From positions 1 to 20,547 of IMG/VR virus record IMGVR_UViG_3300050024_000236: DNA of 20,547 nt, one strand, 5' to 3'. The notes under the pieces are model-generated. The model saw only the letters and a list, made by a program, of their open reading frames with translations, was not told the DNA's origin and did not search any database. The DNA comes from a virus. Both the position numbers and the translations under genes were made by a program. This document shows positions 5,735 through 20,547 of the stretch, one piece after another; within the stretch, counting starts at the first letter, position 1, and each line of letters begins with the position of its first letter.

Positions 5735-8581
5735 ATGATCAAGCAACTCTTCTTCGTCGGCCAGTCCGACCAGGGCGTGTTTGCCCAAGCGCTCTTCGGA
5801 AGCGCAGGCTGCTTCGAGAAGACAGGTGGAGCTCCACCCTTCGCAGACTGGGAGACTGGCGAGGCTCTACGAGACAACGTCGAAAGCATCACCAAGCAAG
5901 AGCGGGAGAAGAACTGCTACATCCTGGTGAATGCTCTTGGCGCAGGGGAGTTCTACGGCAGCAACATCAACGCCGACTGGTTCCCTTGGGAATCTCTTGC
6001 CCATGTCGGTGACGACTACGGCTACAAGACCTTCCTCTCCGCTCATGCTTTCCTCCACCACAAGAACAAGCCCCATCTCGGGCACACGATCTTTGGGGAT
6101 GTGCCTCTCAGCCTCCTCAACACCTCTATGCGGCGGGTTGAGCTCATCGTCCGCCTCGACCGTGAGATCTGTCGTGCAAAGGGTGGCGGCCAGGTCATCG
6201 ACCGCATCGATGCTGGGGAGTTCCCAGACGTCAGCATGGGCTGCCTCAGTAAGTATGCGAAGATACTGAGGAAAGATGGGAGCATCGACCGAATTGAGAA
6301 CGTTCGGGAAGGCGACTACGTCATCACACACCGTGGTAGGCCGCAGAAGGTCATCAGCACGATGGTTCGCCCTCACAAGGGCACCGTCTTCCACGTCAAA
6401 CCCTACGGACATCGGGATCCACTGGTTCTGACCGAAGAGCACCCACTCTGGCTCATTCGTGCCGAGCAGATGGAGTGCAGACCGTCCTCGAAGGAAGTCA
6501 ACCGAGGACGTAAGCAGCACGTCTGCGCCCCAACCAGCGTGGGCCTGAAGAAGGGCTGCTCCGGGTGCTCTACGAAGCCGGTCTATAGCTTCGACTGGGT
6601 TCGTACTGACGAGGCCAGAGAAGGGGACTACCTCGCCCTCCCCCTTCCAACGTTCGAGACGACTACCAAGTTCACGGCCGATGAAGCTAGACTCCTTGGG
6701 TACTACCTGGCCGAAGGCCATACCTGCTTCGACCGCAAGAACCTTCCGCGAGCCTTGGTGCTGAGCACCGGGTTGCATGAGGTTGAGATCCACGAAGAGA
6801 TCAGGGGCCTGGCCCAGCGCCTAGGAGTTGAGGACTCTCTTTCGGAGTTCGATGCGGAAGATCGCAACGGGAAGTACATCACCATCAACGACAGAAGACT
6901 CGCAGGACTCTGCACCGAGCACTGCGGCAACGGAGCGAAGACCAAGAAGCTCTCGGTCTCGGTGATGGGCGCGGACGAGGAGACGCTTCAACTCCTCCTC
7001 GGCGCCTACGCCAACGGAGATGGTGGTTGCTACAAGGGCTCCATCTACCTCTCGACTGCCTCCGAGCAGCTATCCGACCAGCTTCGCATCGTCCTCGCCC
7101 GTCTGCGTTGCATCTCCAGCGTGAACGAGATCGTCCACAAGCCCTCGAAGCTGGTCCAGAAAGAGACCGTCGAGTACCAAGTATGGGTTGGTACGGACTC
7201 GGCCTGGAGGCTCACCGGCTCTCGTCACTCTCCCGGCAAGTCGGAGAAGATCAACAACAAGAGGTTCTTCTACGACTACGAGGGCACGACCTACTTGATG
7301 ACTCCTATCGAGAGCATCGAGGAGGTCGAGTACGACGACAACGTCTTCAACTTTGGCGTTGAGGGGGACGACAGCTACCTGGTCGACGGTCTGGCGGTCC
7401 ACAACTGCAAGGTGCCTTGGGACGAGTGCTCCCTCTGCCTGAACCATTCCGAGACCAAGGACGACTACTGCAAGTGCATGAGGCCACCCGAGGAGCTTCG
7501 CCACCTCCTTGGCCCGAACCGCATCCTGCCCGATGGCCGGCGCATATTCGTCAGGAACATCTACCCCCGCTTCTTCGACATTAGCTTCGTCTTCATCGGG
7601 GCCGACAAGACGGCCAAGGTAATGGCCAAGCTGGCCTTCGACCAGAGCAAGGGCCTGTGGCTGCCGGAAGAGTTCCTCGAGCTGTCTGCAGATGCAGGAC
7701 ATCGTTTCTACATCGACCTGGGGCACACCAAGACGGCATCAGCTCTTCCGCCCTGCCCGGATCGTTCCTGCCTCGAGTGCGACCACAACTGCGGTGGCAT
7801 GGCCAAGATGGCCTCAGCCTTCGGCAAGACCAAGGCGGCAGAGCGCAGGAAGGTTGCTGAGATCATCAAGGACATTCCGGCCGGAACCTTCGCCGTGAAG
7901 AAGCTGCCTGCGCTCGAGCAGACAGAGCCCAACATCTCAGGTGACCACCTGGATGAACTGGCGAAGCTCCCACTCCCCAAGGTGCTCGGCGCCAGTGCAG
8001 TCCTAGGGATGATCCTCAAGCCACAGGAGTTCCAGCATCTGGTTCTTCGGCAGATGGGTGAGGATGACCTACTCGAACAGCTCGAGCAGAAGTCCCAGGT
8101 CTTCTCTCCGTCCCAGGGCTTCATGGATGTGGACATCACCCTCAAGCCAGGCGATGAGCCAGAGCCACAGGGCTGGTCTGAGGCAGTGAAGACCCTGGCG
8201 AAGTACGTTGCGGAGAGAGGTTCCTTCGGAAGACCCTTCTCGATCCGTGTACATCTACTCCGGGACACTACGAAAGTTCCTCTTCCCACGCAGACTACGA
8301 TCGGACATTCTTTGCTGGACAAGTTGAGCGCGGCATACAATGGGTATCGCCGCAACGTCTTGACGAAGCTGTCGCAGGCAACAGAGGTGTTGCAACGCGA
8401 CCCAAGGTTGAGGGAAGAAGTTCTTGGGGAAGGACTCGGAAGCATGATGTCGAAGACCTCGAGCTCATCTCCACTTCTCACCCTCGACTCGGTGGTGTAC
8501 ATGATGGGCGCGTACCTTGAAGACCGTCGGCTGCTTCACACCACCGCTGTTGAGTCGGTGGATCACTCCTGGCTCTCATAA
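5735..8581 (+). CDS. Prohead-protease-like protein interrupted by an intein (precursor 948 aa)
   Basis: The exteins (residues 1-169 and 558-948) join to a 560-residue protein. Around 95-140 it reads YKTFLSAHAFLHHKNK followed by SMRRVELIVRLD, and the junction region reads FPDVSMG then CKVPWDECSLC. His104 (or His108/109) and Ser167 would be the catalytic pair of a herpesvirus/HK97-type prohead protease. This rests on recognised pattern, position before scaffold and capsid genes, and order, not on an alignment. Cys558, 565, 568, 579 and 581 make a likely zinc site just after the serine motif; Cys674, 679, 682 and 686 form another. Residues after about 640 are unusual for a simple protease and may be a scaffold-like domain. 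The intein (170-557) sits two residues after the presumed catalytic serine, so activity probably requires splicing. The ATG lies two bases after the previous stop. Confidence 0.82.
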   Translation: MIKQLFFVGQSDQGVFAQALFGSAGCFEKTGGAPPFADWETGEALRDNVESITKQEREKNCYILVNALGAGEFYGSNINADWFPWESLAHVGDDYGYKTFLSAHAFLHHKNKPHLGHTIFGDVPLSLLNTSMRRVELIVRLDREICRAKGGGQVIDRIDAGEFPDVSMGCLSKYAKILRKDGSIDRIENVREGDYVITHRGRPQKVISTMVRPHKGTVFHVKPYGHRDPLVLTEEHPLWLIRAEQMECRPSSKEVNRGRKQHVCAPTSVGLKKGCSGCSTKPVYSFDWVRTDEAREGDYLALPLPTFETTTKFTADEARLLGYYLAEGHTCFDRKNLPRALVLSTGLHEVEIHEEIRGLAQRLGVEDSLSEFDAEDRNGKYITINDRRLAGLCTEHCGNGAKTKKLSVSVMGADEETLQLLLGAYANGDGGCYKGSIYLSTASEQLSDQLRIVLARLRCISSVNEIVHKPSKLVQKETVEYQVWVGTDSAWRLTGSRHSPGKSEKINNKRFFYDYEGTTYLMTPIESIEEVEYDDNVFNFGVEGDDSYLVDGLAVHNCKVPWDECSLCLNHSETKDDYCKCMRPPEELRHLLGPNRILPDGRRIFVRNIYPRFFDISFVFIGADKTAKVMAKLAFDQSKGLWLPEEFLELSADAGHRFYIDLGHTKTASALPPCPDRSCLECDHNCGGMAKMASAFGKTKAAERRKVAEIIKDIPAGTFAVKKLPALEQTEPNISGDHLDELAKLPLPKVLGASAVLGMILKPQEFQHLVLRQMGEDDLLEQLEQKSQVFSPSQGFMDVDITLKPGDEPEPQGWSEAVKTLAKYVAERGSFGRPFSIRVHLLRDTTKVPLPTQTTIGHSLLDKLSAAYNGYRRNVLTKLSQATEVLQRDPRLREEVLGEGLGSMMSKTSSSSPLLTLDSVVYMMGAYLEDRRLLHTTAVESVDHSWLS
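6242..7405 (+). mobile_element. Full-size intein with LAGLIDADG homing endonuclease (388 aa)
   Basis: All expected blocks are visible. Block A starts at Cys170 (CLSKYAKILRKDG, then VREGDYVIT). Block B is VLTEEHPLWL with Thr233 and His236. Two dodecapeptide motifs follow: RLLGYYLAEG (319-328, acidic Glu327) and LLLGAYANGDG (420-430, acidic Asp429). Block F is DNVFNFGVEGDDSYLVDG, and block G ends in VHN (His556, Asn557) with Cys558 as the +1 nucleophile. All residues needed for standard class 1 splicing and both endonuclease acids are present, so splicing and cutting are both likely intact. A Cys cluster (264, 275, 278) lies between block B and the endonuclease. Its first codons are less GC-rich than the flanking exteins, in keeping with horizontal arrival. 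Confidence 0.95.
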
Positions 8582-15030: not shown

Positions 15031-16059
15031 ATGCCGACCAGAAAAATCGACATTCCACTTGCTGTGAGGATGTACTTTGAGGAGGGGAAATCCGAAGAAC
15101 AAATCGCCCCAGTTTTTGGAGTGTACCCGGCAAGTATTGGGCAGGCTTTGAAGGCCGCAGGCTACACTCTTAGAGGTCAGGGAGAGGCTCGGACTGGGGT
15201 ATCAGCCGAGTGGAATCTCATCAGAACTCCAGACCTCGAAAATCAAGTAAGGCATCTGTACCTAGACGAGCAGAGATCTCCCAAGTACATCGCAGAAGCT
15301 ATGGGGCACTCGGCCACCTGGGTAAACGCCACCCTTGACCGTCTGGGGATCCCTCGAAGAACCCGGTTGGAGGCCTTTGCTCTTCGCTCTCACCGTGCCC
15401 TAGGTGGTGAGTTTACGAAGGAGCAGATTGAGCTGGCTATGGCAGAAGTCGAAGGCAATGCCACTGAGTGTGCGAAGAACCTCAACATCAAGTACACAAG
15501 TCTCATCGGCATCTGTGACAGATTCGGAATCTCAAGACGCGCTTCTCCTGGAAGGATGTCTGACCCTCTCCCTTCCTGGATCAATGAGGCAATAGAACTC
15601 TCCAAGCAGCACGTTCTTCACTCTGACATTGCCGCCAAGTACGGGGTTACCTACGAGAAGCTCTCCTACCTGTTTCGGAAGGTAGGACACAAGGGCATCA
15701 CCGGTCGTCCTGGGGTACGAGACCCTTTTCCCAGAACCATAATGGGCCAGAAGTTGCGGCTCAAAAGGGAGTTTGTCAAAGAAGGTGGCTGGACTTGCGA
15801 AGTTTGTGGGGAGCCTCTTCACCTCATCATGGCCCACATCTGGGAGAGGCGTGACCGTGGGCCTATGGAGAAGGACAACATCCTCATCCTCTGTGGAAAA
15901 CACCACGATCGGTTCGACAAGCCCCAGTACGGAGCTTTGACTCCTCAAGAGTTCGAGAAGATCAAGGCCCGAGTTCGCTTTGCCGAACAGAAGTACAAGG
16001 GAAGGCCCTGCACAGACGGGAGCCCCTGGCCCGGCCGACTTTTCTATGCCGGCTGGTAG
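15031..16059 (+). CDS. Free-standing HNH homing endonuclease with four HTH-like units, 342 aa
   Basis: The C-terminal HNH nuclease is clear: CEVCGEPLHLIMAHI (Cys256, Cys259, His269), then DNILILCGKHHDRFD (Asn283, Cys288, His291, His292). These give the catalytic His-Asn-His and a zinc site. The N-terminal 225 residues hold four helix-turn-helix-like repeats, at about 8-47 (KSEEQIAPVFGVYPASIGQA), 69-111 (YIAEAMGHSATWVNATLDRL), 129-170 (ECAKNLNIKYTSLIGICDRF) and 184-222 (DIAAKYGVTYEKLSYLFRKV). They presumably read a long target site. AGGAGG lies nine bases before the ATG. Base composition is visibly less GC-rich than the neighbours, and rarer codons are used, consistent with recent transfer. 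It stands between two structural genes and is followed by a hairpin. It is not inside a recognisable intron. Confidence 0.92.
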   Translation: MPTRKIDIPLAVRMYFEEGKSEEQIAPVFGVYPASIGQALKAAGYTLRGQGEARTGVSAEWNLIRTPDLENQVRHLYLDEQRSPKYIAEAMGHSATWVNATLDRLGIPRRTRLEAFALRSHRALGGEFTKEQIELAMAEVEGNATECAKNLNIKYTSLIGICDRFGISRRASPGRMSDPLPSWINEAIELSKQHVLHSDIAAKYGVTYEKLSYLFRKVGHKGITGRPGVRDPFPRTIMGQKLRLKREFVKEGGWTCEVCGEPLHLIMAHIWERRDRGPMEKDNILILCGKHHDRFDKPQYGALTPQEFEKIKARVRFAEQKYKGRPCTDGSPWPGRLFYAGW

Positions 16060-18436: not shown

Positions 18437-19348
18437 ATGTTGACTGTGACCAGCCTCCGAGCGGTCAGTATGGATCTGGATCACATCGACGTGTTCTGGG
18501 AGATAGGCCCTGTGCCTGGGCCCAAGGCAGACGAAGACCGGCACGAGATCTTCGACTACCAGTTCTTCCTCTCCCGGTCCGAAGCGATGATGGGGCCCTA
18601 CCAGCCAGTGGCTGGGCCTCTTCGTGACCAGTATTGGGTGAGAGACATCCAGGTCTCTCTTCTTCACAACTGGCGCGACTTCTTCTACAAGCTCCTGGTT
18701 CTTCATGTCCCCACTGGGGAAACTCTACAGGTTGGACCAACCTCGTTCAGCCAGCCGGCTCCGGACCTCATTGCCTCCGAGATCATGCACCAGGAGGATG
18801 TGCTCTTCCGGGAGTTCATCGGAAGACGCTGCTGGCTCTTCCCAGCTCGCACCTTCGGGCCTCGGTGTTCCTGCTTCGACGTCTACTCAGGGCGCAGGAC
18901 TCGGTCAGGCCACAAGATGTGCTTCGACACGGGCTTCCTCGGGGGCTTCTTGTCCCCTGTTGAGGTCTTCGTGCAGATCGATCCACCCGGCAAGAGCGCC
19001 CAGGCAACGGCCCTGACGGAGCTGCAGCCGGGTGACACTTCCGCTCGGATGATCTGCTTCCCACCAGTCAACCCCAAGGACATACTGGTGGAGTCCGAGA
19101 ACGTCCGCTGGAGGGTCGTCAGGGTCTCCACCACGCAACGTCTCCGGACGACGGTGCATCAAGAACTGACTATCCACCAGATCCCCAAGGGAGACGTTGA
19201 ATACGACCTACCGGTCAACGTGGATCTCAAGAACCTCTCCCCCTCTGCAGCCCGAAACTTCACCAACCCGAGCAACGTGAAAAACGATGCGGACTACTCC
19301 GACATCTTCGACTTTTGGAGCGGAAAGACTGGCGGGACTCTTCGATGA
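18437..19348 (+). CDS. Putative virion structural protein with Cys/His motif, 303 aa
   Basis: The N-terminal 100 residues are strand-rich and look like a fibronectin-type or similar beta domain (HIDVFWEIGP, then FDYQFFLSRSE and FYKLLVLHVPTG). Residues 141-170 contain a Cys/His cluster (Cys144, Cys146, His159, Cys162) followed by DTGFLGGFLSPVEVFVQID, which resembles a zinc site in head- or neck-associated proteins of uncultivated phages. The C-terminal part is again beta-rich. The start lies three bases after the previous stop, with AGGAC about 11 bases upstream. The last 62 bases overlap the next gene if that one starts at 19287. A connector or neck role is plausible but unproven. Confidence 0.85.
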   Translation: MLTVTSLRAVSMDLDHIDVFWEIGPVPGPKADEDRHEIFDYQFFLSRSEAMMGPYQPVAGPLRDQYWVRDIQVSLLHNWRDFFYKLLVLHVPTGETLQVGPTSFSQPAPDLIASEIMHQEDVLFREFIGRRCWLFPARTFGPRCSCFDVYSGRRTRSGHKMCFDTGFLGGFLSPVEVFVQIDPPGKSAQATALTELQPGDTSARMICFPPVNPKDILVESENVRWRVVRVSTTQRLRTTVHQELTIHQIPKGDVEYDLPVNVDLKNLSPSAARNFTNPSNVKNDADYSDIFDFWSGKTGGTLR

Positions 19349-19631
19349 GCTTTCGAAGATAGCCGAGGCCACAGCTCCAGAAGCGAAGAAGCCCACCTTG
19401 AAGAAGTGGTTGACGAACTCCGCCCTCATCGCAGGTGGGGCTGGAGTTGGGACGGCTGTGGCCATGGTGGGGGACAAGCTGCTCGGGGCCAAGCTCGGTC
19501 CAATCTGGCAGCGCCTGGATCCCAAGGCCAAGAAGTACATCATCGGCCCTCTGCTTGGGGCGGCGATGGTCTGCTCTGGCCTGGCTGCGCAGAAGTTGAT
19601 GATGGAGAGGAGCAAGAAGGACCGTGAGTGA
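19287..19631 (+). CDS. Unknown small protein with KIA motif and two hydrophobic segments, up to 114 aa
   Basis: The conserved-looking part begins RLAGLFDELSKIAEA (14-28), the same N-terminal pattern as in the proteins at 9557 and 16126. Two hydrophobic stretches follow: ALIAGGAGVGTAVAMVG (46-62) and YIIGPLLGAAMVCSGLAA (84-101). The ATG at 19287 lies inside the previous gene and has no good ribosome site. There is no ATG, GTG or TTG between it and the motif; only CTG at 19329 has a GGAG eight bases upstream, and would place the motif at the N-terminus. The true start is therefore uncertain. The stop codon overlaps the GTG of the GIY-YIG gene. Possibly membrane-associated or packaged; function unknown. 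Confidence 0.72.
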   Translation: MRTTPTSSTFGAERLAGLFDELSKIAEATAPEAKKPTLKKWLTNSALIAGGAGVGTAVAMVGDKLLGAKLGPIWQRLDPKAKKYIIGPLLGAAMVCSGLAAQKLMMERSKKDRE

Positions 19632-20340
19632 GAGTGTTCCATCAGGCGGAGACTTCATAGTCTATGGGCTATGCGAGCCTGATACTGGGCTCTTGCGATA
19701 CATCGGCAAGACTGCCAATGGAATGAGAAGGATTAGGCTCCACTTTTCACCGTCAAAGTTGAAGAGGGACGGCCGTACCCGGAAGGCGAACTGGATACGC
19801 TCCCTCTTGGCTAAGGGATTGAAGCCAAAAGTCGTCATCTTAGAAGAGTTTGAGAGTGAGTCTCCTCTCAATGAGCAGGAGATTTTCTACATCTCCTACT
19901 TCAGATTCCTAGGATGCGACCTCACAAACTTGACTGTGGGTGGAGACGGGGCAAAGGGCTACTGCCCTCCTCCAGAACTCAGAGCCTACCTGTCAGAGTG
20001 TGCGAAAAGGCAGCATGTGGAAAATCCAGATCTCAAATTCAGACTTGGCAAACTTGCCAAGAAGCGTTGGGAAGACCTGGCCTATCGCCACCGCATGACT
20101 GAGATATCAAAGAGTCAGAAACACTCCGAGGAAACAAAGAGACGAATAGGTGATGCTGGGCGTGGACGAATTATCTCTCTCGAGCAGCGCAAGAGGATCT
20201 CGGAGGCTAGAAAAGGCCGGAACCTGAGCCCAGAACATAGGGCTAAGATCTCGGCTTCCCGGAAGGGTCAAAAGCTGTCAGAAGAGCACAAGAAGAAGAT
20301 CTCCAGTTCTCTGCTGGCCTCCTCACGGAAGACTGCATGA
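19624..20340 (+). CDS. Free-standing GIY-YIG homing endonuclease with NUMOD3-like repeats, 238 aa
   Basis: The nuclease domain shows IVYGLCEPDTGLLRYIGKT (12-30, the GIY-YIG pair in degenerate form), an Arg-rich stretch, the acidic LNEQEIFYI (catalytic Glu84 or Glu86) and LTNLTVGGDG. The C-terminal region contains four 17-residue NUMOD3-like units, beginning HSEETKRRI (167), ISLEQRKRI (184), LSPEHRAKI (201) and LSEEHKKKI (218), which bind DNA. Its first eight residues, MSESVPSG, are not part of the domain. They match residues 4-8 (SVPSG) of the following gene and are probably that gene's original start. The GTG start is preceded by AAGGA and overlaps the previous stop. Base composition is less GC-rich than its neighbours. 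It ends ATGA, overlapping the start of the next gene. Confidence 0.93.
   Translation: MSESVPSGGDFIVYGLCEPDTGLLRYIGKTANGMRRIRLHFSPSKLKRDGRTRKANWIRSLLAKGLKPKVVILEEFESESPLNEQEIFYISYFRFLGCDLTNLTVGGDGAKGYCPPPELRAYLSECAKRQHVENPDLKFRLGKLAKKRWEDLAYRHRMTEISKSQKHSEETKRRIGDAGRGRIISLEQRKRISEARKGRNLSPEHRAKISASRKGQKLSEEHKKKISSSLLASSRKTA
19633..19648 (+). repeat. 16-bp direct repeat, left copy
   Basis: AGTGTTCCATCAGGCG lies in codons 4-8 of the GIY-YIG gene. The identical sequence occurs at 20346-20361, 713 bases away, in codons 4-8 of the following gene and in the same reading phase. Confidence 0.9.
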
Positions 20341-20547
20341 CGGTTAGTGTTCCATCAGGCGTCCCGCAACCCCAAGGTGCAGGGGAGGACCCTCTCTACT
20401 TCTACGTCCGGCTCTTCTTGCGCTTCCTCCAGGGCCTCTTCGCGACCTTCGAGAAGGGTGCATACCACTGGGAGCTGGATGAGAAGCTCTCGGACATCTC
20501 CATCTCCGACCAGGGGACAGTGACCAGGGAAGTGGTTGAGAAGAGAC
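20337..20547 (+). CDS. Unknown phage protein, N-terminal 70 aa, cut by right edge
   Basis: The ATG at 20337 overlaps the stop of the GIY-YIG gene (ATGA), with GGAAG about five bases upstream. The protein begins MTVSVPSGVPQ, then EDPLYFYVRLFLRFLQGLFA and a charged strand-rich part, ending at the window edge. Segments such as DPLYFYVRLFL and GLFATFEKGAYHWE look like a conserved hypothetical protein of phage structural blocks, but I know no function. Before the homing gene arrived, the start was probably the GTG at 19624, giving MSESVPSGVPQ. Codon use is GC-biased like the native genes. Confidence 0.78.
   Translation, partial: MTVSVPSGVPQPQGAGEDPLYFYVRLFLRFLQGLFATFEKGAYHWELDEKLSDISISDQGTVTREVVEKR
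20346..20361 (+). repeat. 16-bp direct repeat, right copy
   Basis: Second copy of AGTGTTCCATCAGGCG, in the 5' end of the partial gene at the right edge. Together with the left copy it brackets the homing gene. Confidence 0.9.

Follow-up and report, generated by a model that had tools for sequence, protein, structure and literature searches.

We describe, from an uncultured tailed phage, a GIY-YIG homing gene that very probably entered the start of another gene, took over the GTG codon, ribosome site and codons 1-8 of this target, and rebuilt the target's start at its own 3' end. The window analysed is the whole record, a single viral contig of 20,547 bases, and the search for relatives therefore extended beyond it. 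The evidence consists of an exact repeat at the two starts, the arrangement of the reading frames, empty sites in related loci, the lack of any other homing start before codon 24, and a step in base composition.

Results

The homing gene lies on the plus strand at positions 19624-20340 and encodes 238 amino acids. Its product carries a GIY-YIG domain at about residues 12-92 (PF01541; E 4.3e-6, 27.4 bits, cut-off 22.6) and, at about residues 198-217, NUMOD3, a DNA-binding module of homing enzymes (PF07460; E 1.1e-9, 38.5 bits, cut-off 20.4). It also matches the homing endonuclease family phrog_314 (E 6e-22). These matches bear out the identity assigned to the gene in a sequence-only reading of this DNA; a sequence search of solved structures with the protein returned no relative. 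The body of the insert (19649-20345, plus strand) has a G+C content of 51.2%, against about 60% in both flanks.

Two exact copies of AGTGTTCCATCAGGCG are present in the window, both on the plus strand: one at 19633-19648 within the homing gene and one at 20346-20361 within the target gene that follows. Each copy comprises codons 4-8 plus one base and begins nine bases past the first base of the start codon. Thus, the homing gene opens at 19624 with GTG AGT GAG AGT GTT CCA TCA GGC GGA, and the target at 20337 with ATG ACG GTT AGT GTT CCA TCA GGC GTC. The TGA of the homing gene and the ATG of the target overlap as ATGA (20337-20340). Copies and frames are as the sequence-only reading had described them, in the same codon phase at codons 4-8 of both genes. 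Scanning the window with up to three mismatches yielded no match beyond these two copies. Three exact 16-nt direct repeats exist in the whole window, the other two being AAG/GAG-rich coding sequence. Among 819 other adjacent same-strand gene pairs in the fetched loci, the longest in-phase match near the paired starts was 11 nt, and in 2000 mismatched pairings of 5' with 3' ends of homing genes, shared words reached at most 14 nt. The repeat is not attributable to chance, since it exceeds the gene-pair, mismatched-end and whole-window controls.

Sites lacking the homing gene were found in relatives of the target. The closest one, in locus L003, shares 69% protein identity with the window's gene. 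Further loci were identified with two-sequence alignments of a 303-aa upstream gene and of the downstream gene, for a total of 14 loci carrying the target (L091 and L092 are nearly identical). None of the 14 has a homing gene at this site. In the four closest loci, the target starts exactly eight codons before the VP/LP/IP position, reading MASRVPVG-VPQPQG in L003, MSIKVPSG-LPQPQG in L099, MSVKVQTG-LPQPQG in L098 and MSEVVNKS-IPLAQG in L086. Joining the left copy of the repeat in the window to the right flank gives MSESVPSG-VPQPQG (MSESVPSGVPQPQG), in agreement with these empty sites. The latter read across the entry point, in keeping with the prediction made in the sequence-only reading, and place the nuclease gene inside the target coding region. 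Relatives of this kind had been expected to carry SVPSG at an unchanged start. The homing gene is indeed missing and the eight-codon start is there, but exact SVPSG occurs in none of the four: L099 has KVPSG, and the others have VPVG, VQTG and VNKS. Ancestral codons 1-8 are not directly visible because no empty site is closer than 69% protein identity. A search for a near-identical empty site with the exact 16-mer across IMG/VR returned only 15 other contigs, which contain it once each, show no homology to the homing or target genes and represent background. No relatives of the upstream and downstream genes were found in cultured phages.

The context in which the homing gene starts is that of a target start. 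The gene upstream (19287-19631, plus strand; 114 aa) is 49% identical to its L003 counterpart with no C-terminal gap, and the two genes end at homologous codons. The TGA of the window's upstream gene overlaps the GTG of the homing gene by 8 nt (GTGAGTGA); an overlap of equal length is formed by the target's own start and the upstream stop in L003 and L086. The homing start reads GTGAGTGAG, against ATGAGTGAG for the target start in L086; homing codons 1-3 (GTG AGT GAG, 19624-19632, plus strand), which we take as ancestral codons 1-3 of the target from this likeness and overlap, equal the L086 target start at eight of nine bases. The GTG is preceded by a ribosome-site-like AAGGA (19617-19621, plus strand) in an inherited position, L003 also having AAGGA there. 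Predicted ribosome-site pairing amounts to -8.3 kcal/mol before the homing GTG, as compared to -3.5 before the present target ATG. After the GTG, the next ATG, GTG or TTG in the homing frame comes only at codon 24, between the GIY and YIG motifs, and the homing gene depends on the captured start because codon 24 falls inside the nuclease domain. By contrast, several homing relatives (e.g. L005, L012 and L015) start a few residues ahead of the domain. Altogether, the 8-nt overlap, the L003-type ribosome site and the lack of another early start identify the start of the homing gene, by position and context, as that of the target. Because no start other than that of the target can serve for its translation, expression of the homing gene is linked to that of the target operon.

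The nine bases that begin each gene give a less uniform picture. Their identity to the four empty sites, MSE start versus MTV start, is split (8 versus 5, 7 versus 6, 4 versus 5 and 3 versus 4), and in L098 and L099 the target natively forms a 4-nt ATGA overlap with the upstream gene. The earlier claim that GTG and ribosome site were taken from the target thus finds support in position, AAGGA and 8-nt overlap, but not in these two observations. Similarly, the proposed change from MSESVPSGVP to MTVSVPSGVP fits the empty sites once the flanks are joined, whereas the order of the two starts is a matter of likelihood: MSE is likely the old target start and MTV (ATG ACG GTT at 20337-20345, plus strand, overlapping the homing stop) the new one.

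The target gene (20337-20547, plus strand), of which 70 codons are present before the record ends, is probably a tail terminator. Modelled at a mean pLDDT of 69, its L003 homologue has fold matches among neck and tail-terminator proteins from P1, 812, E217, T5 and lambda (gpU), and a weaker one to T4 gp15. With modest TM-scores of about 0.2-0.6, this identification is probable but not firm. It fits with the next gene in L003 being a probable tail sheath, judged from weak Pfam matches below the cut-off. Residues 1-16 of the modelled homologue have pLDDT values below 50 and the N-terminus varies among relatives; this end of the protein is therefore probably flexible and may accommodate MTV in place of MSE. 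In the window, the target frame retains a full eight-codon start and is not split into two polypeptides. Its openness over the 70 codons of the record, together with a likely essential role, suggests that the rebuilt target is still functional.

In the history that we propose, a free-standing GIY-YIG homing gene with no usable start of its own would have entered the probable tail-terminator gene among codons 1-8. The left-hand portion of the target, namely the ribosome site, the GTG overlapping the upstream stop and codons 1-8, would have turned into the beginning of the homing gene. The 3' end of the element would have supplied another ATG together with a repeat of codons 4-8. The target would remain encoded with a restored start, probably translated by re-initiation at the ATGA overlap. 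The enzyme would be expected to cut the empty site, and the duplication could have arisen during repair of a break near codons 4-8. Entry had originally been placed just after codon 8. Entry among the start codons is upheld, but the repeat makes all placements within 19632-19648 equivalent, so that the position is confined only to the interval from codon 3 to codon 8.

The claim that the element's 3' end brought a new ATG and duplicated codons holds for codons 4-8 but leaves the origin of the first nine bases unexplained. Between the two starts, five of these nine bases differ (four are identical), while the following 16 nt are the same. Had just 16 nt been duplicated, a restored length of eight codons would not be expected. 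A 25-nt duplication does not account for the confinement of all five differences to the first nine bases (126/53130 = 0.0024 if randomly distributed), unless selection for the ATGA overlap reshaped them. Both the restored length and the five differences would follow if the element had brought with it a donor phage's version of this start; no such donor phage was found. Cleavage by I-TevI-type GIY-YIG homing enzymes leaves 2-nt overhangs, so the 16 bp are not a simple fill-in of a staggered cut. The repeat may stem from two genome copies that broke at different positions and whose ends were then joined.

Other histories could give a similar arrangement. The homing gene might have been placed between genes, in front of an original MTVSVPSG start, and have later gained target codons 4-8 at its 5' end through gene conversion or a small duplication; the target start would then be original and nothing would have been rebuilt. 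The native ATGA overlaps with the upstream stop in L098 and L099 speak for this, as does the T at position 2 in L087 (MTAERS), and over the nine bases L099 and L003 are slightly closer to ATGACGGTT. However, such a course requires that the homing gene lost a start of its own and separately gained the overlap, the ribosome site and codons 4-8 in phase, and we regard it as unlikely. The ancestral empty site would distinguish the two: entry into the target start implies GTGAGTGAGAGTGTTCCATCAGGCGTCCCGCAA at the upstream stop, insertion in front implies ATGACGGTTAGTGTTCC, and an empty site with GTGAGTGAGAGTGTTCC at that stop would be the opposite of what insertion in front entails.

The outer pieces join in frame, and the insert might conceivably be removed by splicing, as an intron from the RNA or as an intein from the protein, with the target read as MSESVPSGVPQPQG. 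The homing ORF fills nearly the whole insert, however, leaving no room for an intron core, and no Rfam intron family was detected over 18437-20547 at E values up to 5. The homing protein has no intein domain and ends at its own stop codon, with the target in a different frame. Both forms of splicing were rejected on these grounds as extremely improbable. Hardly more credible is an assembly artefact joining unrelated pieces at a short repeat. The window is a single metagenomic record for which no second assembly was found, but both junctions retain open frames and the expected overlaps. Assemblers usually work with words longer than 16 nt, and a repeat of this length is thus disfavoured as the cause of a false join. 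We therefore retain entry into the target start, with capture and rebuilding, as the preferred reading.

To look for similar cases, we scanned 144-149 homing ORFs (L005-L084 and L112-L191; an earlier scan was smaller) for a target end present at both ends of the homing gene. Two clear cases emerged besides the window. In L061 (2869-3792; same contig as L100 and L112), the C-terminus of a NUMOD3 homing gene repeats the last 21 codons of the gene upstream: the latter ends RLDSTVIGMSEDEIRFETSAA and the homing gene RLDSTVIGMSEDDIKFATSAA, with 9 of 22 codons differing synonymously. No homing gene follows the L061-type target in ten other loci, although L107 ends about 450 bases past the stop. The second case, L145 (1559-2307), pairs a portal/Mu-F target whose end reads QCRCTILPVIKR with a GIY-YIG/NUMOD3 homing gene terminating in QPRCTILPVIER; synonymous differences affect 7 of the 13 codons. 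L061 is a C-terminal mirror image of the window, and L145 is probably a second one. Like the window, these IMG/VR loci have two copies of the target end, one on either side of a homing gene with NUMOD3. They differ in being of the C-terminal form and in that their copies share amino acids while the codons mostly differ.

Several other candidates were set aside. At both ends of a homing gene, L040 (2935-3624) shows a 24-nt near-repeat (22 identical) that includes a ribosome site and ATGAG(C/T)TGT, but the second copy begins no long gene. L066 and L027 probably have merely alike ribosome sites, and L166 fits the pattern mainly through a cysteine motif that HNH enzymes have in common. In MW202613, an endonuclease adjoins a minor capsid gene by plain overlap, with no duplicated end.

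The window contains two other probable homing-type elements. A probable LAGLIDADG intein of about 388 aa lies at 6242-7405, inside the gene at 5735-8581; it is bounded by CLSKYAKIL and, ahead of a C, by the VVHN-type end LVDGLAVHN. Another probable homing gene (HNH, PF13391) is found at 15031-16059, with a third-position G+C of 0.61, compared to 0.75-0.99 in most neighbours. Together with the gene at 19624-20340, the 20-kb record thus bears three homing-type elements.

Discussion

Phage homing genes have been found near or inside essential genes (PMC10448857). Known cases inside coding regions are mobE in nrdA of Aeromonas phage Aeh1 and mobA in the T4 topoisomerase gene (PMC2988022). These resemble the window in that a phage homing gene sits inside the coding region of an important gene that is still expressed; however, mobE and mobA split their targets into two polypeptides, whereas the target in the window keeps a full-length start. 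The Seg genes of T4 also encode GIY-YIG nucleases and are inserted in operons, but they are tabulated as lying between genes, and takeover of a downstream gene's start codons is not described there (PMC2988022). Overlap with the preceding ORF is seen in five of the free-standing homing ORFs of T4, for which coupled translation has been proposed (PMC2988022). A further report (PMC2248197), considered as a phage precedent, proved not to be one.

The closest precedent found is that of fungal mitochondrial mobile ORFs that duplicate target C-termini (PMC3630166). Endonuclease ORFs carrying a replacement C-terminus of their target occur in atp6 of Allomyces macrogynus and in atp6, atp9, cox2 and nad3 of Glomus (PMC3630166). 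As in the window, the homing gene lies inside the target coding region and a target end occurs on either side of it; one of the two copies continues the target, and the other is displaced. In the fungal type, however, it is the C-terminus that is duplicated and the copies are divergent, whereas the duplicated end in the window is N-terminal, very short and identical over 16 nt, with four of the nine preceding bases shared. This end also gives the nuclease gene its start codon. No description of a homing gene taking over and rebuilding the start of its target was found in a limited search of the open-access literature.

We tentatively suggest that phage homing genes can live inside essential coding regions, with neither intron nor intein, by taking one end of the target and carrying a replacement. 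Such a general route, of which the window would be the N-terminal form and L061 and L145 the C-terminal form, may perhaps have been little recognised so far. Homing genes crowd round essential phage genes, and entry into a coding region without a splicing element or death of the gene is known mainly from split genes. The window shows both ends of such an event, and related phages show the uninterrupted state. A target end repeated at both ends of a homing gene is a signature that can be counted across viruses, and the arrangement parallels, in nature, those laboratory gene drives in which a rescue piece of the cut gene is included.
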